A stretch of 52,616 nt of DNA from a virus. Location: IMG/VR virus record IMGVR_UViG_3300036791_000154, positions 1-52,616 of that record. The stretch is one strand, 5' to 3'. Shown piece after piece: positions 4,103-50,727 of the stretch (position 1 is its first letter; each line of letters begins with the position of its first letter). The notes under the pieces are model-generated. The model searched no databases. It was not told the origin of the DNA and saw nothing but the letters and a program-made list of their open reading frames with translations. Both the position numbers and the translations under genes were made by a program.

Positions 4103-5155
4103 TTAGTACGGCATAAATGGTGGCTTGACTAAGGTCAAATTAACCTGATGATCAGCACCATCATCAGATAAAGTAAGGTCCAATTGGGTTATGCGGTAGT
4201 TGTCGTTGATGTTGATGCGACCACTTTTGACGATAAACTTTATGATGTCGCCAACCCATGCGTCAGCCTGATTAATCCAAACGCCTTTCTTTAGCTGGCA
4301 TGTCCATGTCGCTGCGACTAGTTGCATGTTAGTTGCTTGCTGATTAGCGAACGCTACTAAGTGAGAATGATCAACGATACTTGGGTCACTTGCTACATTC
4401 ATTAATCGACCTTGCGGGGCAGTCGCGATGCCTGCTGCATCTTGCACTATTGGAGTAAGTGCCATATCACCGCTAGCAAAAACAGAGTCGGCAAAAGACC
4501 CAGTATCAAGGCTTCGACTAACCTGCGCAACTGCACCGCCATACTCCATAACGAAAGTATTGTTTTGCCGATAGTAGAATGGCGAAACGGCTTTCAGGTT
4601 TAAGCCCAACAATGAAACTGGAATCACTTGCCAGCCAAAGCCATTCATGGACGCAATGACATCTTTAGCTGTACCGCCAACCAACGTATCAAAGTTAATT
4701 GTGCTTGTTGGCATCTGACTTGAATCAAGCGTTAACTGTGGCTGTATCCCAGGACGCCCCAATATCCAAACGAGAATGTCGTTCATGACTTTTGCTGATG
4801 TCACGCCACGCCACGATAAGGGTGCGCCAGGTCCAAGGATTTGCCGACCTAACCATTCACGATAATCAAAGCAATTTATCGTTGTCTTATGGCTTTGCTC
4901 ATCAATTGCATCTGACGTTGTGCCAACGCGCCCACGCCAAAATAATTGGCCATACCGATAAACCCATACATCAGTTACTAGTTCTGTGATGTACTGGAAT
5001 ACCGTGTCATGGCCATCTAATATAAACTGAAACTTGCTCGCATCATCGACTAAGAAATTAAATTGCCTCCCAGTTGCATTAGCGATAGCGACTTGCGGAC
5101 CAGTATTCCACTGCCCCGCAGCCATTGTCCATGGTGACTGTGTAGTAGCAGTCAT
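4103..5155 (-). CDS. Minor tail protein (Gp37-like / baseplate hub type)
   Basis: A 350-residue protein between the other baseplate genes and the fibre. The N-terminal part (W-rich strands, a YGQLFWRGRV segment near residue 70, a CFDYREWLGRQIL segment near 105) resembles Siphovirus Gp37-like minor tail proteins. The start overlaps the preceding stop by 4 nt (ATGA coupling). It is probably part of the tail tip that carries the fibre. The family call is from pattern memory only; the tail role is firm from position. Confidence 0.75.
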   Translation of the reverse strand: MTATTQSPWTMAAGQWNTGPQVAIANATGRQFNFLVDDASKFQFILDGHDTVFQYITELVTDVWVYRYGQLFWRGRVGTTSDAIDEQSHKTTINCFDYREWLGRQILGPGAPLSWRGVTSAKVMNDILVWILGRPGIQPQLTLDSSQMPTSTINFDTLVGGTAKDVIASMNGFGWQVIPVSLLGLNLKAVSPFYYRQNNTFVMEYGGAVAQVSRSLDTGSFADSVFASGDMALTPIVQDAAGIATAPQGRLMNVASDPSIVDHSHLVAFANQQATNMQLVAATWTCQLKKGVWINQADAWVGDIIKFIVKSGRININDNYRITQLDLTLSDDGADHQVNLTLVKPPFMPY

Positions 5156-7292: not shown

Positions 7293-9460
7293 CAGAGCCT
7301 ACTTGCTACTAAGGCAGCTTCCAGCTTTTGCACAATAGCTGCTGGGGAATTGTGCCCAAAGTCGATAGTCGCATTAGGGAATAGATTGATGATACGACCG
7401 CCTGCACTATGCCCAGCCAGACTTACTCCATGACCACTAATCTCAGGTATTGCACCAGCCGCCATCATGCTGGATGCATTCGCTACTAGATGCTTATTCT
7501 TAGTGATGCCACCAGCCATACCCTGCACTACATTAAGACCAATCTCTTCCATCACCTTAGATGGTGACAGCATCTTTAAGACTTTTCTGATTGGAGCAGG
7601 GATGCTATTAACGACAGTGCTTGTAACCGCTGAGACAAGCGAACCAGCCATACTAGTAATGCCATTAATCAAGCCCTGGATAACACTGTTGCCAGCGCTA
7701 ATAAGCCATGATCCAGCACCGCTAACGGCATTGAGCGCATCCTGTCTCAATCCGCTTAAACCGCGACTGATAGCCCCACCTACGGTGCCTGCAAGACTGC
7801 CCAATGCACCCGCTATTCTGCCTGGCAAACTTTGGAACCAACTAGTCGCACTGCCAACAAGGTTAGAGATTGCGCCTATCGCGCTATGCCACATTCCAGT
7901 TACAAAGCCAACGACATCGCTAGCCATACGACTAACAAAGCTTGAAACATCACGCCAAAGCTTCTCAAAGAATGGGGCAATCACATTCCAGTGTTGAATG
8001 ATCAGCAACGGTATGCCGATAAACGGCATGGTCGCAGCAAGGATAATTGGCCCATATTTCTTGATGATATTTACAACAGTCTTCCAAGTATCATCAAAGA
8101 ATTTGATGAAGTCTTTGAATGCACTAGTTACGGCATGCAACGCATCCATGAAGTATTGCTTTAGATCATGCGCAACCAAATTGACTAAATCATGGAACGG
8201 CTTGATCTTCATGTATGCCAGGATAAAGCCACCAGCCAAAAGAGCAATACCAGCAACGATAAGGATAATCGGTCCCAGTGCTGCATCCTCTGATAAGCCC
8301 AAAGCGACGTTAACGCCAGTCGATATCTTGGCGATAGCGTTTTGCAGCTTTTCTATTTCCATGAATTCTTTGAATGCTTTAACGCCTCTTCCTAGCTTGC
8401 CAATAATGCCAGACTCAATGATTGCACCGAGACCCATCATAACTGGCCCAGCAGCTTGTATCGCCGGACCAACCTTTTGCCCCACAGTAGAAGCGAAATC
8501 TTCGATTCTTGCGCGTGCCGCTTTCATGTGTCCAGTGAATGTATCGGCAGCTACGCTTGCCTGTCCAGCAAGCTTTTTAGCTAAAAGATCAGAGGCAGCG
8601 GCACCAATATTGGTGTTCGCAGTCATGCCCTTTATTTCTTTCTGTAAATCCTTTGCTTTTATAGTGTTCGTTGCGATCGCTGCTGTTAACGCCGCGCGCG
8701 TTGCTTTATCCTTTGTATTTATTTTTTCCAGTTTCTCTGTCTCGATTGCTGATTGAAGCTTTGCTAACGCATCTTCCTTTTCTTTCCTAACGCCAGTGTC
8801 AGAAAGTTTATTAATCTCGGCAGTAGTAATCCCATACTGTTTAAGCGTCTTTGTATTGCCGTTCATTACTCTTGCGACGATGCCTGCAGCATTAGCTAGG
8901 CTGACATGTTTTTGGGAAGCAAGGTCAGTTACTAACTGCATGTTTTTATATGACTCAGAAACGTTTCCAGTACGAGATACTAAGACACCCATAGCCCTAG
9001 CGGTATCTACTGCCGTATAACCAAAGTGCTCTTCATGATGGATTGTCTCTTCTGTTTTCTTGCTGTATTCATCCCACGAACCACCAGCATTTACAACGAC
9101 ATCCTTTAGCTGGCCCATGGCGATTTTATCCTTATCACCCATGGTTACAAGCAATGTTCCAGTGGCTGTCGCAGCGGCACCGACACCCAAAAGGCTCTTG
9201 CCTACCTTGCTTTTCATGCCTTCTGTTGCAGTGCCGAATGTGTCCACCTTATCAAGCAATTCTTGCACTGGCGCTAACGCTGGACTAAACGATGACATTA
9301 GCGTGCCACTCATTGCCTTAAACGCAGTGCGAGCACGGTTGGAAGCTTGCTCTGATTTTTGACCGACTTGCTTTTCAACCTGATTGCCAGTGTTCGCTAA
9401 CGCTGGGGAAAACTCATCTTTCATCTTAACGTTAATGAAAGCTTCGCCAAGAATTACCAT
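7292..9460 (-). CDS. Tail tape measure protein
   Basis: A 722-residue protein. Features in order: a basic, coiled N-terminus (residues 1-60), a TP901-like core (about 90-220, with MGVLVSRTGN and ANAAGIVARVMNGN), a charged helical stretch (220-300), two hydrophobic membrane-like segments (about 390-415 and 470-490), then a glycine/alanine-rich C-terminus (560-700). It sets tail length and probably helps DNA cross the membrane. It follows the frameshifted chaperone pair; AAGGGG precedes ATG by 11 nt. It is short for a tape measure, predicting a tail of roughly 100 nm by the usual rule (inference). Confidence 0.93.
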   Translation of the reverse strand: MVILGEAFINVKMKDEFSPALANTGNQVEKQVGQKSEQASNRARTAFKAMSGTLMSSFSPALAPVQELLDKVDTFGTATEGMKSKVGKSLLGVGAAATATGTLLVTMGDKDKIAMGQLKDVVVNAGGSWDEYSKKTEETIHHEEHFGYTAVDTARAMGVLVSRTGNVSESYKNMQLVTDLASQKHVSLANAAGIVARVMNGNTKTLKQYGITTAEINKLSDTGVRKEKEDALAKLQSAIETEKLEKINTKDKATRAALTAAIATNTIKAKDLQKEIKGMTANTNIGAAASDLLAKKLAGQASVAADTFTGHMKAARARIEDFASTVGQKVGPAIQAAGPVMMGLGAIIESGIIGKLGRGVKAFKEFMEIEKLQNAIAKISTGVNVALGLSEDAALGPIILIVAGIALLAGGFILAYMKIKPFHDLVNLVAHDLKQYFMDALHAVTSAFKDFIKFFDDTWKTVVNIIKKYGPIILAATMPFIGIPLLIIQHWNVIAPFFEKLWRDVSSFVSRMASDVVGFVTGMWHSAIGAISNLVGSATSWFQSLPGRIAGALGSLAGTVGGAISRGLSGLRQDALNAVSGAGSWLISAGNSVIQGLINGITSMAGSLVSAVTSTVVNSIPAPIRKVLKMLSPSKVMEEIGLNVVQGMAGGITKNKHLVANASSMMAAGAIPEISGHGVSLAGHSAGGRIINLFPNATIDFGHNSPAAIVQKLEAALVASRL

Positions 9461-43039: not shown

Positions 43040-44878
43040 TTACCTGATACCTCCAATGATTGCCCGAATGTAATTATCGACGCCTCGCCTACCGTCAAGA
43101 ATTGCTTTTGTTATGGCTTCCTTTCTCCCTGTTACGTCACTGATGTATTCGTCGATAGTGTCCTTACACTTCAAGTAATAAATCGTGACTTGATGAATGC
43201 GACTAACGCGGTGGATACGATCTTCCAATTGCTCTTGATCGTCAGGCGTCCACGTTTCGTCAATGATGACAAGCTCATCGCAATAGGCATCGAGCGTGAT
43301 TGACACGCCTCCAGCGGTAGTGTTCATGAGCATTACGCGCGGTCCACCCGCTGCTTGCCAGCGACTAGTAACCGCTACCCTCTCAGATTCCCTTACTTCA
43401 CCAGTAATCTTTAGAGTTTCAACGCCGATTGAAGCTAACCATTCTTCGCAAGAATTGATGACTTGCGTAAACTGGCTTGCAATAACAATCTTGTTTTCAC
43501 CCTGTCGATCATCCTTTGGACCTGCGATGCCACGCTCTTCCAGCATCTCCAAAATCACCGATGCCTTACCGCTATGAATCGGCTCAAACATCGCTACTGG
43601 CTTAGGTGTCTGTACGGCTCGCCATGCGCAATTAGAGAATTGCTTTAAGCGAGTTATAACCGCGAGGATACCCACAGCGCTAAGGGCTTCATCTTCCATG
43701 TCGATAAGCTCAGCCATAGCCTTATCGCGCATCTGCACATACATTCGTTGCTGAGCGTCGGTCATATCGCAATACACCGTAATACGCTGCTTTGGCGGTA
43801 GCTCTTTTACAACTTCTGCCTTAGTGCGGCGCAGCATTACATCATCCAAGGATTTGAAGAATTCCTTTTCAGCGTAAGGCTTAACCTCACCGTAGGTAGT
43901 TCCCCAGCCGCTGTTATACATGACTAGGTATCTTTCAGCCCACTTCCAAAACGACGGATATTGCTCTGGCCTAAGCCAATGCAACGTACCCCACAGATTC
44001 TTAGGCTTACCCCGCATCGGTGTACCTGATAGCGCAATTTTCACGCCATCATTTGCAAGTTTAAGTCCAAGGATGCCTTTACCTACTTGCGTGACATCCT
44101 GCTTGCCTTTCACGCCGCTAAGATATTTGTGACTCTCGTCCAAGACAAGAGCTTGAAATTCTAGCTCGCATAAAAGCTGGTACTTTTTCTTTGCATCTCG
44201 CACCATTTCGGGATTCACCACTAGAATATGTGGCGATTCAGGGTTATCCAGATAGTGTTCAACCCACTGCTGGATGATTACCCCACGTGCATAAGCGGAA
44301 TCTCGCTTCTGTGGCACACCAATTACGGTGTACGCATCAGGCGCGTACTTTTTAAGCTCAGTATCCCAGACAGGACGTAATGACGTTAGCGGAGCAGCAA
44401 CTAGGATCAATCCTTGCCAACAATCGGCTTCGATCAATCCAGCTATTGCCTCTAACGTCTTGCCCAATCCTGGCTCATCCGCGATTAATGCTTGCCTTTG
44501 TTTTGCAATGAATTTCGCACCGACTTGCTGATATGTGCGCGTAGACATTGCTTCAACTAACCGCTGATGATTACCTAGCTTATCCAGTTTGGCTTCGCCA
44601 GCTTTCACCATCTCTGCAAGGGCATTCTCTTCTGCTATGGCGTCACGCGCCCAAGCATTGAGTTTCTTACCAATCTGCAATTCCTTATCGAAAAACTTTC
44701 GCAGATTACGGCACATATCAAGGGATAATGGCATATGCCAAAGTTCCCTTTTCTTGTCCCATCTTGCACCTAGGCGCCTAAAGTAATACTGATTACCGTA
44801 GGGTGTCTGAGCCCAGATTTCGCCATTGAAGATTTCGACCTTAACGATTCTTTCTGGATCTACGTTGTCGTCAGCCAC
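43040..44878 (-). CDS. SNF2-family superfamily 2 DNA helicase
   Basis: A 612-residue protein; I choose GTG 44878, which overlaps the preceding stop, over an upstream start lacking a site. HIRAN-like strands lie before the core. Walker A DEPGLGKT at 134-141, LDESH (DEAH-type) near 235-240, SGTPMRGKP, and C-terminal motifs NTTAGGVSITLDAYC, then QLEDRIHRVSRIHQV. It would remodel or unwind DNA during replication or repair. Confidence 0.88.
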   Translation of the reverse strand: MADDNVDPERIVKVEIFNGEIWAQTPYGNQYYFRRLGARWDKKRELWHMPLSLDMCRNLRKFFDKELQIGKKLNAWARDAIAEENALAEMVKAGEAKLDKLGNHQRLVEAMSTRTYQQVGAKFIAKQRQALIADEPGLGKTLEAIAGLIEADCWQGLILVAAPLTSLRPVWDTELKKYAPDAYTVIGVPQKRDSAYARGVIIQQWVEHYLDNPESPHILVVNPEMVRDAKKKYQLLCELEFQALVLDESHKYLSGVKGKQDVTQVGKGILGLKLANDGVKIALSGTPMRGKPKNLWGTLHWLRPEQYPSFWKWAERYLVMYNSGWGTTYGEVKPYAEKEFFKSLDDVMLRRTKAEVVKELPPKQRITVYCDMTDAQQRMYVQMRDKAMAELIDMEDEALSAVGILAVITRLKQFSNCAWRAVQTPKPVAMFEPIHSGKASVILEMLEERGIAGPKDDRQGENKIVIASQFTQVINSCEEWLASIGVETLKITGEVRESERVAVTSRWQAAGGPRVMLMNTTAGGVSITLDAYCDELVIIDETWTPDDQEQLEDRIHRVSRIHQVTIYYLKCKDTIDEYISDVTGRKEAITKAILDGRRGVDNYIRAIIGGIR

Positions 44879-45059
44879 GATTATCACTGACAAACAACTT
44901 GCTGATTTGGCAGATGCGCAAAGCACATTTGCCATCAACGTTGACCCAGATTACCTTGCCATCTTCCCTGAATTCGACTTCTACGATGTCGGGAGCAGTA
45001 ATATCTAGCATCCCTTCACTGTAGTTATATCGTCCAGGTAATACTGGCTCGTTATTCAT
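44871..45059 (-). CDS. Small hypothetical protein before the helicase
   Basis: A 62-residue protein with leader GGGAGGCACTGA before the ATG, the same leader type as the ribozyme-linked genes. Beta-rich (DIVEVEFREDGKVIWVNVDGKC). It overlaps the helicase start. No recognised family. Confidence 0.6.
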   Translation of the reverse strand: MNNEPVLPGRYNYSEGMLDITAPDIVEVEFREDGKVIWVNVDGKCALRICQISKLFVSDNRG

Positions 45060-45109
45060 TCAGTGCCTCCCAACACTAAGGTCTGACTATCGATTTGATA
45101 GCCATGAAA

Positions 45110-45130
45110 AGCAGCAAACTAGTTGCTGCT
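45110..45130 (-). terminator. Terminator-like hairpin
   Basis: AGCAGCAA and TTGCTGCT around a CTAGT loop, followed by TTTC on the transcribed strand, 20 nt after the stop of the 136-residue gene. A second small hairpin (CTATC/GATAG) follows. This junction has no hammerhead. Confidence 0.55.
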
Positions 45131-45148
45131 AATCATGAACATCATTCG

Positions 45149-45559
45149 TTAGAAAACGTCATCTCCAGAATCAAGCTCGCGCAATAATTCGCGCGCACGC
45201 TCAACACGCGCCTCCATTCTGGCTCGCTGCTCTGCTAATTTTGCCGCTCGGGCCTTGTCTTTCTCCAAATGCTCTTCTGCCTCTTTTGCAGTCATCGGCT
45301 TATAGCGCTCTGGATCTATGTCTGCCGATATCTCGAATAGAACATCATTCGCGACGATATCAGCAGGCACATTTGTGCTCCAGAACCAATCGCCTTCAAG
45401 GCCATTAAGCAATAGCACGACTAGCGCTTTTTCAAGCTCATTGTCATACGCGCCTTGGGCTTGCAGACTGTTGTAAACCTCCGAACAACGTTGCTGAGCC
45501 GAACCGTTAGGCGCGTACTTTTGCAAAATCCCCAGTAACGCATAGGCATTTTCATTCAT
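45149..45559 (-). CDS. Coiled-coil hypothetical protein
   Basis: A 136-residue protein, ATG overlapping the previous stop region. Globular N-terminus (residues 1-85), then a highly charged helix (KEAEEHLEKDKARAAKLAEQ, ARVERARELLRELD). The helix resembles that of the 185-residue protein further upstream, hinting at shared ancestry or function. No recognised family. Confidence 0.6.
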   Translation of the reverse strand: MNENAYALLGILQKYAPNGSAQQRCSEVYNSLQAQGAYDNELEKALVVLLLNGLEGDWFWSTNVPADIVANDVLFEISADIDPERYKPMTAKEAEEHLEKDKARAAKLAEQRARMEARVERARELLRELDSGDDVF

Positions 45560-45894: not shown

Positions 45895-45920
45895 GTGCGC
45901 CTCCCTGACGCTATTCTGAT

Positions 45921-45979
45921 GGTCTCATCAGACAAGCATTTAGCTTGTGACACCCTTACAAAATAAGGGTGTTTCGACC
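45921..45979 (-). ncRNA. Type II hammerhead ribozyme, copy 1
   Basis: Read on the minus strand from 45979: GGUC (stem II 5' side), GAA, stem III ACACCCUUA/UAAGGGUGU with a 5-nt loop, C17, stem I ACAAGC-UAAAU-GCUUGU, then CUGAUGA and GACC closing stem II. All hammerhead core positions are present. Predicted cleavage is between 45949 (C17) and 45948. It begins on the base right after the preceding stop codon (TAA at 45982-45980). CAUCAG just downstream can pair with CUGAUG. Confidence 0.93.
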
Positions 45980-46228
45980 TTAGATCGGCAACGATCGATC
46001 ATCCGCGCGCATGATATCCGCATAGTTATCGTGAATGTATGCATGAATACGTGACGCCTCATGCGTTGCATCCGCGATGACATCGTCCAGAGTGCTTGCC
46101 CTGACGTTATCGGCACTTCTGCCATTCTGCATGCCGCTAGCGCGAATAGCCTCTTGAATAAAGGCTAACTCTTCGGCGTCCAATGAAATCATCGTTGTGA
46201 CGACAACTTCATTCTTGAAGCTTGCCAT
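45980..46228 (-). CDS. Hypothetical early protein
   Basis: An 82-residue protein; ATG 46228 chosen because GGGAGGCACA precedes it (an upstream ATG lies inside hammerhead copy 2). Strand, then helices (DAEELAFIQEAIRASGM, VIADATHEASRIHAYIHD). No recognised family. Its TAA is immediately followed by hammerhead copy 1. Confidence 0.6.
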   Translation of the reverse strand: MASFKNEVVVTTMISLDAEELAFIQEAIRASGMQNGRSADNVRASTLDDVIADATHEASRIHAYIHDNYADIMRADDRSLPI

Positions 46229-46256
46229 TGTGCCTCCCAGCACTAGTGTTTCTGAT

Positions 46257-46315
46257 GGTCTCATCAGCGCACGATTAACGCGCGGACACCCTTACGCTTA
46301 AAGGGTGTTTCGACC
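46257..46315 (-). ncRNA. Type II hammerhead ribozyme, copy 2
   Basis: Same 59-nt layout: GGUC/GACC stem II, GAA, stem III with ACACCCUU/AAGGGUGU, C17, stem I CGCGCG-UUAAU-CGUGCG (one G-U pair, which is allowed only in the transcribed-strand RNA), CUGAUGA. Cleavage predicted between 46285 and 46284. It lies 14 nt after a terminator-like hairpin. CAUCAG downstream can pair with CUGAUG. Confidence 0.92.
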
Positions 46316-46328
46316 TTTCGCGCATAAC

Positions 46329-46365
46329 AAAAGCGAGCCAACCCAAGTTAGGCTGACTCGCTTTT
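46329..46365 (-). terminator. Terminator-like hairpin before hammerhead copy 2
   Basis: AAAAGCGAG with CTCGCTTTT form a long stem with further pairs, followed by TTTTGTT on the transcribed strand. A good intrinsic-terminator shape just before the ribozyme, which is odd: the ribozyme would then depend on readthrough, as only 13 nt separate them. Confidence 0.55.
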
Positions 46366-46391
46366 GCTACGCGACTTTTGCAGAAAAGCCT

Positions 46392-46949
46392 TTAGAATGC
46401 TGGCTCTTCTTGGGGTGCTGGCTCTGCGGGAGTCTCTGCGGTAGCAGCTTCGCCCGCTTGTCCAGCAGCCATTTTCGCCTGCAATTCGCGGACACGCGCG
46501 GCACGTTCGGCGTAACGCTTCGCCTGCGCTTCCAGTTGCTTCATCCGCTTTTCGTCCTTTGCCAATTGCGCGGCAGCCTCTTCTGGGGTTGTCGGCAAAG
46601 GCTCTTCCTTTGGACGCGGTCCCGCTGCTTCCAACTCTTCCGAAAGCTTGATGAATTCATCCGTCTTTCGGAAGACCTGATAAAGCGCCTGGCAAGCAAC
46701 GATAGTCGCCATGTCCATGGTGTACTTTTCGTTGCTTTCGCGATTGATCCAATTGGCAAAGGCAACGTGTTTCGGCGCATTCCAATTACGCTTCATCGCC
46801 TTGTCAATTGTCGTCGCGAAATCGGCGTCAACTTCTGTCGCCTCTTCGGTGTGATCCGCTTTTGCTTCGGTGCTCGCAGCATTAGCAGCATCGGTGCTCG
46901 CATCGGTGCTAGGTGCATCGGTGCTCGCGATGTCGGCAACGTCTGTCAT
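46392..46949 (-). CDS. Alanine/glutamate-rich coiled-coil early protein
   Basis: A 185-residue protein with GGGAGGTAGGAA before its ATG. Acidic Ala/Thr/Asp N-terminus (1-45), a central domain (47-110, NWNAPKHVAFANWINRES), then a long coiled coil (115-165) and an Ala/Glu/Pro tail. Codon use is richer in GC than its neighbours. Likely an abundant early structural or host-binding protein; no family recognised. Confidence 0.6.
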   Translation of the reverse strand: MTDVADIASTDAPSTDASTDAANAASTEAKADHTEEATEVDADFATTIDKAMKRNWNAPKHVAFANWINRESNEKYTMDMATIVACQALYQVFRKTDEFIKLSEELEAAGPRPKEEPLPTTPEEAAAQLAKDEKRMKQLEAQAKRYAERAARVRELQAKMAAGQAGEAATAETPAEPAPQEEPAF

Positions 46950-47008
46950 TTCCTACCTCCCAGTAGGTTCTAGCTAGCCTGTCTGACTAGCTCCTATCAA
47001 TGCTGACA

Positions 47009-47035
47009 CTAGCGGTTAGAGTGCTAATCCGCTAG
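47009..47035. other. Hairpin in leader of the coiled-coil gene
   Basis: CTAGCGGTTAG and CTAA(T)CCGCTAG form an 11-bp stem with a bulged T and a 4-nt loop. It lies between hammerhead copy 3 and the next ribosome site, i.e. in the 5' leader left after cleavage. Confidence 0.45.
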
Positions 47036-47065
47036 ACCTTATCGCCAATTTTTCTAGCTCATTTT

Positions 47066-47124
47066 GGTCTCGTCAGTGTGCGCGTTACGCACAGACACCC
47101 TTTGTTACTAAGGGTGTTTCGACC
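47066..47124 (-). ncRNA. Type II hammerhead ribozyme, copy 3
   Basis: Stem II GGUC/GACC, GAA, stem III ACACCCUU/AAGGGUGU, C17, stem I UGUGCG-UAACG-CGCACA, then CUGACGA. The C at core position 7 is the variable position of the hammerhead consensus. Cleavage predicted between 47094 and 47093. It starts 8 nt after the preceding stop. This copy has no CAUCAG competitor. Confidence 0.93.
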
Positions 47125-47132
47125 TAGCTTGC

Positions 47133-47288
47133 TTAGGCTTCTAATGCCGCTAGTAGCTTGCGGCACCTATCGGAAACATTCCCACGATTAGTGCCTAACC
47201 GCGTGAATTCCAACGCTTGCATCATCGTTCGATATTCAGCGTTGCTAAGCACAATCACCTTGTTTCCAGTGGCAATCCGCGTTGCCAT
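47133..47288 (-). CDS. Small hypothetical early protein
   Basis: A 51-residue protein from ATG 47288, which overlaps the preceding stop (TGATG), with AAAGGG 8 nt upstream. Basic; helix TMMQALEFTRL. Its stop is followed by hammerhead copy 3. Confidence 0.55.
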   Translation of the reverse strand: MATRIATGNKVIVLSNAEYRTMMQALEFTRLGTNRGNVSDRCRKLLAALEA

Positions 47289-47584
47289 CACTTTTGCCCT
47301 TTGAATATAGGGCATGTTTCCAAGTGTGGCTCAGTGTGGCATTCATACAATGATGAAAGCGCAAATTCATTGGCTTCTAGATAAGCGTTTTTCTCTTCTC
47401 CAGAGGCCATGCCTGCGTATTTCTCAGTCATCGCATCAATGTATTTCCAATCACCCTGGCTCATGATGCATTCGATTTCAGCGATCTTTTCGGCTTCTGA
47501 GTCATTCGCCCAGGCATATTTCAATAGCCATTCGCGAATTTCTGCCTCCAAGAACACTGGCTTGTCTGATTCATTTTCAGTCAT
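47288..47584 (-). CDS. Small acidic early protein
   Basis: A 98-residue protein, start overlapping the preceding stop (TGATG). Helical and Glu-rich (DSEAEKIAEIECIM, EEKNAYLEANEFALSSLY), with C-terminal Cys/His (ECHTEPHLETC). No recognised family. Confidence 0.6.
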   Translation of the reverse strand: MTENESDKPVFLEAEIREWLLKYAWANDSEAEKIAEIECIMSQGDWKYIDAMTEKYAGMASGEEKNAYLEANEFALSSLYECHTEPHLETCPIFKGQK

Positions 47585-47820
47585 CAGACGCGCCTATCTT
47601 CTGGACCGCCGAGCTTCGCAATATGCGCATTAAGATCAGCTAGCGCACCCTTGCGAGTGCGAGCTTTCGTAATGCCCTGTCGCTGTAACGCCTTTAGCGT
47701 TGACTGACGAAACATGATGCCCTTGATTTCCAAGTGCAATCGTCCGCGCATGCTCAGCAGTGCGAACATATTGATTTCGTCTGGCGTGTCCAGGATAATG
47801 TCGCCATTATCGTTAATCAT
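47584..47820 (-). CDS. Small actinophage-type early protein
   Basis: A 78-residue protein with leader GGGAGGCACAA. FALLSMRGRLHLEIKG, then QSTLKALQRQGITKARTRKGALADLNAHI is a basic helical pattern common in actinophage early proteins. Likely nucleic-acid binding; no proven role. Confidence 0.65.
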   Translation of the reverse strand: MINDNGDIILDTPDEINMFALLSMRGRLHLEIKGIMFRQSTLKALQRQGITKARTRKGALADLNAHIAKLGGPEDRRV

Positions 47821-47839
47821 TTGTGCCTCCCTGACACTT

Positions 47840-47905
47840 GTAATTGATCTTGCTTATCCTAATCGGATAGGGAATCACCCACATTCCATGGGTAATTCGC
47901 AATCG
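47840..47905 (-). other. Three-way-junction-like element, possible degenerate hammerhead
   Basis: At the one junction of the array without a good hammerhead, the transcribed strand can form the same topology: closing UUGC/GCAA, GAA, hairpin UUACCC/GGGUGA, then hairpin UAUCC-GAUUA-GGAUA. CUGANGA and the GUC triplet are absent, so it should not cleave. It begins just after the stop of the 65-residue gene. The resemblance may be chance. Confidence 0.35.
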
Positions 47906-47907
47906 GA

Positions 47908-48105
47908 TTAGTTGTCAGCTAATGCCTTGTCACCCTCAATAGCGCCAACTAGCAGCGCATCAGAAAGCGAGCAATAACGTCCAACAGCGGTTAGCGTAAC
48001 CGAACCGTCGGAATTCCAAGACATCTTCGATAGTGTTGCCGTAGCGTCACCATCTCTCTGAATTACAGCATGACTTTCGCCGTAATAGATTATGCCTTTT
48101 TGCAT
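47908..48105 (-). CDS. Small hypothetical early protein
   Basis: A 65-residue protein with leader GGGAGGCACAAA. Beta-rich (IIYYGESHAVIQRDG, SVTLTAVGRY). Hammerhead copy 4 lies upstream of its leader. Confidence 0.6.
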   Translation of the reverse strand: MQKGIIYYGESHAVIQRDGDATATLSKMSWNSDGSVTLTAVGRYCSLSDALLVGAIEGDKALADN

Positions 48106-48144
48106 TTTGTGCCTCCCATGACACTGGTATTTCTAATTTCTGAT

Positions 48145-48203
48145 GGTCTCATCAGTGACGCATTAAGCGTCAGACACCCTTACGAACAAAGGGTGTTTCG
48201 ACC
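48145..48203 (-). ncRNA. Type II hammerhead ribozyme, copy 4
   Basis: Stem II GGUC/GACC, GAA, stem III with ACACCCUU/AAGGGUGU, C17, stem I UGACGC-UUAAU-GCGUCA, CUGAUGA. Cleavage predicted between 48173 and 48172. It starts 2 nt after the preceding stop. CAUCAG just downstream can pair with CUGAUG, an alternative fold. Confidence 0.93.
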
Positions 48204-48205
48204 TT

Positions 48206-48706
48206 TCACCAATCGTATTTTTTAGCGCAGATTGGTCCAATACCGCGTGCAATCGACTCAGGATCGGTTAGCGGACTACCGCAAATACCGCATGCGCCAA
48301 CCTGCATTCCAAACGCCTGACTCGCAAGCGCAGGATCTTTTACGATTTCCGCGACAGCAAATCGCCAATCGGCAGCGCTAACGCGCGTGTACCGGAAATC
48401 GCCAGGGCTTCCAAGAACCTTTTGCACATAACGTCTTCCGTTATTGCGCGAGGTAGTAACCCTAAAGAAACGCCAGGTGTTGTCAGTACCGACAATCGCG
48501 TAACGACCATCGGGAATCGTGTCAGGCACAATCCAAGAAGTTGCCTTCTTAGGCATGCCTAAAAGCTGCTCAATAATCGTGCTAGCAGCAACGCGATCCA
48601 GATTTGGCCGTAACTCAGCGAGCTTTATCACGTAGTCAGCGGGTATTTCTCTACCCTCCAACAGACTATCGATAAAAGCGCTCTGCTTTTCGGTTACATC
48701 AGCCAT
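48206..48706 (-). CDS. DUF6011-like early protein
   Basis: A 166-residue protein from ATG 48706, with GGGAGG 10 nt upstream. C-terminal motif CGICGSPLTDPESIARGIGPICAKKYDW matches the DUF6011 pattern (CxxC plus GIGPxC), a small domain spread among phage and bacterial early proteins. The N-terminal half is a helical/beta domain of unknown type. Confidence 0.65.
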   Translation of the reverse strand: MADVTEKQSAFIDSLLEGREIPADYVIKLAELRPNLDRVAASTIIEQLLGMPKKATSWIVPDTIPDGRYAIVGTDNTWRFFRVTTSRNNGRRYVQKVLGSPGDFRYTRVSAADWRFAVAEIVKDPALASQAFGMQVGACGICGSPLTDPESIARGIGPICAKKYDW

Positions 48707-48752
48707 TGTGTTTGTGCCTCCCATGACACAGTGCAATAGAGTGACTATTGCT

Positions 48753-48811
48753 CATCTCATCAGACAAGTAACTAACTTGTGACACCCTTATTTCGTAAGG
48801 GTGTTTCGATG
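48753..48811 (-). ncRNA. Type II hammerhead ribozyme, copy 5
   Basis: Stem II is CAUC/GAUG: both outer base pairs differ from copies 1-4 yet pairing is kept (covariation). GAA, stem III ACACCCUUA/UAAGGGUGU, C17, stem I ACAAGU-UAGUU-ACUUGU, CUGAUGA. Cleavage predicted between 48781 and 48780. It starts 5 nt after the preceding stop. A further hairpin (GCAATA/TATTGC) follows in the leader. Confidence 0.94.
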
Positions 48812-48816
48812 TTTGG

Positions 48817-49113
48817 CTATCGATACGTAACGCCGTTATGTATCGCGAATTCGCCGATTTGCGACTGTCGCGCAATCTCGGTAATTGGCCACCATGTCTC
48901 GAAGCCGTTTACCAACGTGACTCGCACGTAGCAATCTCTGACGTCATCGGGACGCGGCGAATCGTTGTCTCCAGAAAGGTAGCGAAGCGTACCCTCTGCG
49001 ATTTCACCGCCCGGCATGTATCGCCTGACTTTTGCGTTATGCATAAGCGCGCGCATGACATCAGCTAAGCCGTAAACTTCACCTGGCGTTAGCGGACCAT
49101 GATTTTTAGACAT
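48817..49113 (-). CDS. Small hypothetical early protein
   Basis: A 98-residue protein from ATG 49113 with GGGAGGCACA just upstream. Polar; helix GEVYGLADVMRALMHNAKV then strands (DCYVRVTLVNGFETWWPITEIARQ). Hammerhead copy 5 follows its stop. No recognised family. Confidence 0.6.
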   Translation of the reverse strand: MSKNHGPLTPGEVYGLADVMRALMHNAKVRRYMPGGEIAEGTLRYLSGDNDSPRPDDVRDCYVRVTLVNGFETWWPITEIARQSQIGEFAIHNGVTYR

Positions 49114-49152
49114 TGTGCCTCCCTGGCACTCACTGCGAAGCGATCGCAGGAA

Positions 49153-49211
49153 AATCTCATCAGGCAAGTAGCTAACTTGCGACACCCTTATTTCGTAAGG
49201 GTGTTTCGATC
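49153..49211 (-). ncRNA. Type II hammerhead ribozyme, copy 6
   Basis: Stem II is GAUC/GAUU (one G-U pair in the transcribed RNA). GAA, stem III ACACCCUUA/UAAGGGUGU, C17, stem I GCAAGU-UAGCU-ACUUGC, CUGAUGA. Cleavage predicted between 49181 and 49180. The preceding gene's TGA stop (49212-49210) overlaps stem II, so a ribosome at the stop codon would block folding. A CTGCG/CGCAG hairpin lies further down the leader. Confidence 0.93.
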
Positions 49212-50542: not shown

Positions 50543-50727
50543 TTAACGAGCCTGAGATGGCCGTAGGCCCAAGATCATTTAGCATGCTTGCAGCCACCCT
50601 AGGTACCCCAAAAACTCCAGCCTACGGCGATCTGGGTCTTAACGGCTCTGAGATGGAGTCTAAGCCATGATCTTTTAGCATGGTCGCAACTACCCTCGAC
50701 ACCCCAAAAAAGTCGCTTAGGCTCCAT
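50543..50727. repeat. Tandem pair of about 96-bp structured repeats
   Basis: Unit A begins at 50543 and unit B at 50639, each with TTAACG, CTGAGATGG, then GATC-TTTAGCATG, ACCCT and ACCCCAAAAA in the same order. Each is closed by its own stem: A GCCGTAGGC/GCCTACGGC (50560-50568, 50620-50628), B a 13-bp stem from ATGGAGTC to GGCTCCAT (50653-50665, 50715-50727). The stem sequences differ but pairing is kept. Confidence 0.6.

Follow-up and report, generated by a model that had tools for sequence, protein, structure and literature searches.

Type II hammerhead ribozymes in a viral gene block

The virus contig IMGVR_UViG_3300036791_000154 of the IMG/VR database (52.6 kilobases (kb); the whole contig of 52,616 nucleotides (nt) is referred to as the window) carries six elements of 59 nt between positions 45921 and 49211. 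Core conservation, covariation and recurrence in relatives strongly support their identification as type II hammerhead ribozymes on the coding strand. As the best explanation for their arrangement, which we regard as probable, it is proposed that competent hammerheads self-cleave an early polycistronic messenger RNA (mRNA) at gene junctions while it is being transcribed. A strict descriptor covering the full core returned exactly the six minus-strand elements that a first-pass annotation of this DNA had listed, and none elsewhere in the window. Their coordinates and those of further features are summarized in Table 1.

In all six copies the core (CUGANGA, GAA, the A15.1-U16.1 pair and H17) is intact and the topology is identical, with stems I and III closed, stem II open, and the strands arranged in the order stem II 5' side, stem III, stem I and stem II 3' side. 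Self-cleavage is predicted to occur at C17, and the cleavage positions originally proposed match those obtained by counting 31 nt from the start of each element. The stem III arms and the core are near-invariant across the copies, and stem I differs in most of them. The claim that stem I always pairs was borne out, since its own arms showed 36 of 36 bases paired (35 Watson-Crick), compared with a mean of 2.5 out of 6 for arms swapped between copies. The G-U pairs of copies 2 and 6, from which the orientation had been deduced, are present as described. Furthermore, the RNAfold minimum corresponded to the exact three-stem fold in copies 1-4 (4/6), with z-scores ranging from -3.3 to -5.0 for all six elements. 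A looser hammerhead descriptor yielded no matches on shuffled phage DNA.

Placement of the elements at gene junctions

The position of hammerheads relative to genes was evaluated for 62 elements originating from ten contigs. The distance from the end of a stop codon to the start of the element is -2 to +6 nt in 85% of cases, as compared to 9% of random positions, where the stop codons counted are those of open frames of at least 40 codons. A ribosome site comes next, and its start codon is mostly located 12-46 nt from the 3' side of stem II. It had been stated that almost every non-overlapping junction of the window is occupied by a hammerhead; more precisely, this applies to six of the eight gapped junctions between 49626 and 45059, and the other two carry long hairpins, so that none is empty. 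The remaining junctions of this interval are gene overlaps and carry neither type of element.

Strong hairpins at gene ends might also represent terminators, promoters or protein-binding sites bearing an accidental likeness to hammerheads. Conservation of the whole hammerhead core is not expected for such signals, no U-run is present at the hammerhead junctions, and scans for promoter- and terminator-like sequences gave fewer matches than shuffled sequences and none at the hammerhead junctions, which makes this explanation extremely improbable.

Small hairpins enclosing the ribosome site GGGAGG were additionally observed before nearly all early genes and are mostly absent before late genes. 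Changes in their arms are compensated (GUGUC/GGCAC, GCGUC/GGCGC, CCUACU/GGUAGG), examples being located at 49115-49129, 46949 and 45897-45911 on the minus strand.

Recurrence in relatives and other phages

Related contigs were selected by means of their helicase protein, so that the sample is not biased towards the RNA. Within the corresponding operon, L014 (helicase identity 59%) features nine hammerheads according to the strict descriptor and at least one more with an extended stem III, and L015 (55%) features eight. Twelve hammerheads each were found in L205 and L204 (52%), 11 of the 12 in L205 being located upstream of the helicase gene. One hammerhead each was detected in L206 (57%) and L023 (58%); the latter (8547-8610) possesses an extra base between the core and stem II (CUGAUGA-U-GACC) and may be an inactive or slow copy. 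Outside this group, L087 and L122 encode eight and six hammerheads, respectively, and two to six were identified in each of seven cultured Streptomyces phages, namely ShakeNBake, Lizz, Dryad, Rooney, Yara, phiRKBJ001 and Wentworth. Dryad has four hammerheads, all of them on the coding strand within gaps annotated as intergenic; the structural half of its genome contains none. An array of six in one early operon, which had been considered unusual, is thus not unique, as relatives carry 8-12 and other phages up to eight.

A pattern scan with GGTCGAAAC..GTC..CTGATGAGACC, leaving stem I unconstrained, matched at least 120 stretches in viral contigs and 57 in bacterial genomes. Among the matches listed, 169 of 179 distinct elements form a stem I of at least 5 base pairs (bp) at the fixed place, the corresponding value for shuffled arms being 8.6. 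As judged from these comparisons, the stems are maintained by compensatory change. Moreover, a search of the window and five relatives for the stems only, without any constraint on the core, retrieved 29 elements with an intact core; the 15 remaining matches were scattered and chance-like, one of them representing copy 1 out of register. Intact cores in this search indicate that hammerhead cores are under strong selection.

The near-identity of the stem III arms in the six window copies, the differing stem I and the gene content varying between elements among relatives would also suit repeats that spread by recombination and serve as shared joints for gene shuffling, cleavage being incidental. 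Stem III sequences of the relatives are unrelated and still pair, cores are intact, and placement is tied to the stop codon and the ribosome site; recombination repeats are accordingly deemed very unlikely.

Long hairpins at hammerhead-free junctions

Imperfect duplexes of about 20 bp that contain a U-rich internal loop resemble sites of ribonuclease III (RNase III), for example in early mRNA of phage T7. Such a duplex of about 20 bp with an internal loop, measuring 21 and 25 bp, respectively, was found at each of the two hammerhead-free junctions of the window. Likewise, long imperfect hairpins overlap the stop codon at hammerhead-free junctions of L023 (7104, 7396, 7707, 9476 and 9819) and L206 (6161, 9142 and 9908). 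The junction after gene A carries a hammerhead in the window, L014, L015 and L205 and a hairpin in L023 and L206; the one before the acidic gene has a hammerhead in the window and L014 and a hairpin in L023; between the DLDCPPG gene and its neighbour, a hammerhead is present in L014 and a hairpin in L023; and before the helicase gene, hammerheads occur in L014, L015 and L205 and hairpins in L023 and L206. Support for orthology comes from the identities of the flanking proteins in the case of gene A, the DUF6011 gene and the helicase. Orthology is weakest for the acidic gene among the compared junctions (29% identity), and several genes between elements are not common to the relatives. The occurrence of a hairpin in place of a ribozyme at the same junction is the best available evidence for a shared function, namely cutting of the transcript.

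The long hairpins of the window, L023 and L206 may be sites of RNase III or constitute a processing RNA not described so far. The alternatives of a pseudoknot or of ribozymes of a second class were weighed as well; folding gave one long imperfect hairpin, and an Rfam search of the L023 hairpins gave no family match, so that the RNase III-like interpretation is tentatively preferred. Alignment of these hairpins with MAFFT was too poor for building a covariance model. In the window (45087-45152, 47859-47911) as well as in the L023 and L206 set, a second, competing hairpin follows on the 3' side. A further long hairpin of the window (46322-46372) has counterparts at matching positions in L014, L015, L205 and L206.

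A hammerhead subtype missed by the Rfam model

The first-pass annotation had suggested verification by means of the Rfam Hammerhead_II model. At gathering score, RF02276 detected none of the six copies (zero hits in the window); copies 2 and 3 were found below this score only, with 27.3 and 25.3 bits as compared to a cut-off of 37. The gathering score is a threshold for detection and does not refer to mechanism. Two elements of L131 pass it. A pseudoknot between loop I and the 3' tail was sought in the window copies, and none has 4 bp. For elements with a GGWC stem II, a subtype including four window copies, loop I-tail pairing was observed five times versus 5.3 expected; for other stem II sequences, eight were observed versus 1.6 expected. 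Among 220 GGWC elements with a small loop I, 175 have an A directly after stem II. The Rfam model probably scores the window elements low because they belong to a subtype without loop I-tail pseudoknot, and it misses a widespread kind of hammerhead. As far as sequence comparison can tell, the arrays are real, well-conserved type II hammerheads of this pseudoknot-less subtype.

GGWC-type elements are widespread in viral contigs (L024-L143) and in genomes of uncultured gut and rumen bacteria (L144-L200), many of them Gastranaerophilales. At least part of these elements are paired, about 360 bases apart.

Proposed processing of the early transcript

According to the proposed mechanism, the early polycistronic transcript would be severed between genes by the hammerheads during its synthesis. 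The stop codon of the upstream gene borders stem II on the 5' side, and the ribosome site and start codon of the downstream gene follow stem II on the 3' side. Cleavage would leave the upstream mRNA with a 3' end consisting of the stem III hairpin and a 2',3'-cyclic phosphate, and the downstream mRNA with a 5' end consisting of the stem I hairpin and a 5'-OH. At two junctions, the same task would fall to the long hairpin that overlaps the stop codon and is a probable site of RNase III. Overlapping, translationally coupled genes carry no element. Independent expression and stability of the resulting mRNAs would be the expected benefit. A processing role of hammerhead arrays is likely; with regard to the earlier interpretation, the type II assignment stood firmly, and processing into separate mRNAs appears to be the best-supported function, in view of the fixed position relative to stop codon and ribosome site and of the RNase III-like hairpins that take the place of hammerheads at the same junctions.

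The sequence AUCAG, which follows stem II in copies 1, 2 and 4, is able to pair with the core CUGAU (CUGAUG-AGAC-CAUCAG), which excludes stem II. This anti-core hairpin is the predicted minimum-energy fold of the 3' product of these copies and also of the full uncut leader. The NTCAG tail is present in 37 of 252 distinct elements (14.7%), as compared to 1.9% in shuffled sequences, and its first base complements core position N7 in 30 of 34 elements with U and in three of three with C. The hairpin may act in two ways, either freeing the upstream product after cleavage or keeping the ribozyme off before it. In the former case, refolding of the 3' product would break stem II, release the upstream piece and render the cut irreversible. 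The latter would correspond to a gated ribozyme, in which a ribosome terminating on the upstream gene blocks access to stem II, or the core is trapped in the anti-core hairpin; cutting would then report translation or timing instead of being constitutive. The stop codon overlapping or abutting stem II in 85% of elements, the prediction for the uncut leaders and the recurrence of the tail with N7 complementarity are in line with gating. Set against this, the anti-core tail occurs in only about 15% of elements, adjacency to the stop codon is equally expected from a minimal intercistronic spacer, and no ligand or protein partner is known; gating is therefore judged rather unlikely.

Several observations weigh against co-transcriptional self-cleavage as the explanation. 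RNAfold predicted an alternative fold for copy 5 and a fold of copy 6 without its G-U-containing stem II, and stem II comprises just 4 bp in the window copies. The missing loop I-tail pseudoknot is the stabiliser of most published type II ribozymes, which makes the speed in vivo uncertain, and the anti-core hairpin, being the minimum in uncut leaders, could equally turn cleavage off. Moreover, the putative action of RNase III on the long hairpins is deduced from their resemblance to known sites only.

Beyond the single array, it is tentatively suggested that this phage family possibly uses interchangeable modules, namely self-cleaving hammerheads or hairpins of the RNase III type, which abut the stop codon wherever neighbouring early genes do not overlap and separate the genes of a common transcript. 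The modules might also set the ends of the products by means of a stem III cap at the 3' end, a stem I cap at the 5' end, refolding into the anti-core hairpin to make release irreversible, and a hairpin that displays the ribosome site.

Genomic context

The gene block between 49.6 and 43.0 kb is read on the minus strand. On its 3' side, genes for a helicase, an exonuclease, Sak4, a DNA polymerase, a thymidylate synthase and a primase are located, with portal, capsid and connector genes beyond. Gene order and content suggest that the block is expressed early, and the designation as an early operon in the first-pass annotation depends on this gene content. The annotation had overlooked the two non-hammerhead elements, the anti-core hairpin and the ribosome-site hairpins. 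A nucleotide search of segment 44.9-49.7 kb against phage records gave no match, and a search for close relatives of the gene encoding 185 amino acids gave none. Hairpin-like or tandem repeats were noticed in non-coding DNA upstream of the first early gene, both in the window (50569-50710) and in L014 (about 4436-4492 and 4609-4662), and possibly mark a control or origin region.

Table 1. Coordinates and characteristics of RNA elements and selected genes of the window
Feature	Position	Strand	Evidence and remarks
Hammerhead copy 1	45921..45979	-	Descriptor; fold z -5.0; upstream stop codon ends 0 nt before; predicted cleavage 45949/45948
Hammerhead copy 2	46257..46315	-	Descriptor, fold; RF02276 27.3 bits (sub-gathering); predicted cleavage 46285/46284; preceded by perfect 24-bp hairpin
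Hammerhead copy 3	47066..47124	-	Descriptor, fold; CUGACGA core; RF02276 25.3 bits; predicted cleavage 47094/47093
Hammerhead copy 4	48145..48203	-	Descriptor, fold; predicted cleavage 48173/48172
Hammerhead copy 5	48753..48811	-	Descriptor, fold; stem II CAUC/GAUG; predicted cleavage 48781/48780
Hammerhead copy 6	49153..49211	-	Descriptor, fold; stem II GAUC/GAUU; predicted cleavage 49181/49180
Anti-core hairpin, copy 1	45916..45931	-	CUGAUG-AGAC-CAUCAG; excludes stem II and core; fold, recurrence
Anti-core hairpin, copy 2	46252..46267	-	Fold, recurrence
Anti-core hairpin, copy 4	48140..48155	-	Fold, recurrence
25-bp imperfect hairpin over stop codon, RNase III-like	45087..45152	-	z -5.5; 3' part near-identical to an L023 element
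21-bp imperfect hairpin over stop codon, RNase III-like	47859..47911	-	z -4.1; architecture shared by L023 and L206
Perfect 24-bp hairpin	46322..46372	-	z -7.9; after acidic gene 46392-46949, directly before hammerhead copy 2
Ribosome-site hairpin GUGCC-AGGGA-GGCAC	49115..49129	-	Example
Ribosome-site hairpin GCGUC-AGGGA-GGCGC	45897..45911	-	Compensated variant
DUF6011-domain gene	48206..48736	-	Pfam PF19474; between copies 5 and 4
SNF2-type helicase gene	43040..44938	-	3' of the array; query for relatives

Comparison with known systems

In phage T7, host RNase III divides the early polycistronic mRNA at gene junctions, and the individual mRNAs produced have hairpins at their ends. There, the host enzyme acts at every site, whereas self-cleavage is proposed for six junctions of the window and RNase III-like hairpins are present at two.

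Type II hammerheads in clusters flanking single prophage genes were described by Perreault et al. in 2011, who proposed a role in mRNA processing; three arrays from other phage regions were shown to cleave in vitro and one in E. coli (PMC3088659). Clustered phage hammerheads and the processing idea thus date from 2011 and are not new. The window elements share with the published type II class (RF02276; PMC3088659) the core, the three-stem topology with open stem II, the occurrence in phage regions and the clustering. They differ in their 4-bp stem II, small loop I, lack of a loop I-tail pseudoknot and sub-gathering score, and the triple arrangement reported previously contrasts with arrays of 6-12 fixed to stop codons. 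In the clusters around ardA and further genes in (pro)phages of Agrobacterium, Azorhizobium and Clostridium scindens (PMC3088659), several ribozymes likewise flank single genes of one transcript. For those clusters, processing was proposed and cleavage was shown. The window array lies in a block beside replication genes, nearly every non-overlapping junction is occupied, and the pattern is conserved in related phages.

No paper on arrays of such size, or on arrays in the Streptomyces phages named above, was found in the open-access literature (subscription papers and preprints lay outside the search). New in comparison with the known systems are the scale of the arrays, their anchoring to stop codons, the replacement by hairpins and the anti-core hairpin. 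With the stop-codon rule, the hairpins replacing hammerheads at the same junctions and the two to six elements of each cultured Streptomyces phage, the purpose of phage hammerheads, a question dating from 2011, becomes directly amenable to laboratory tests.

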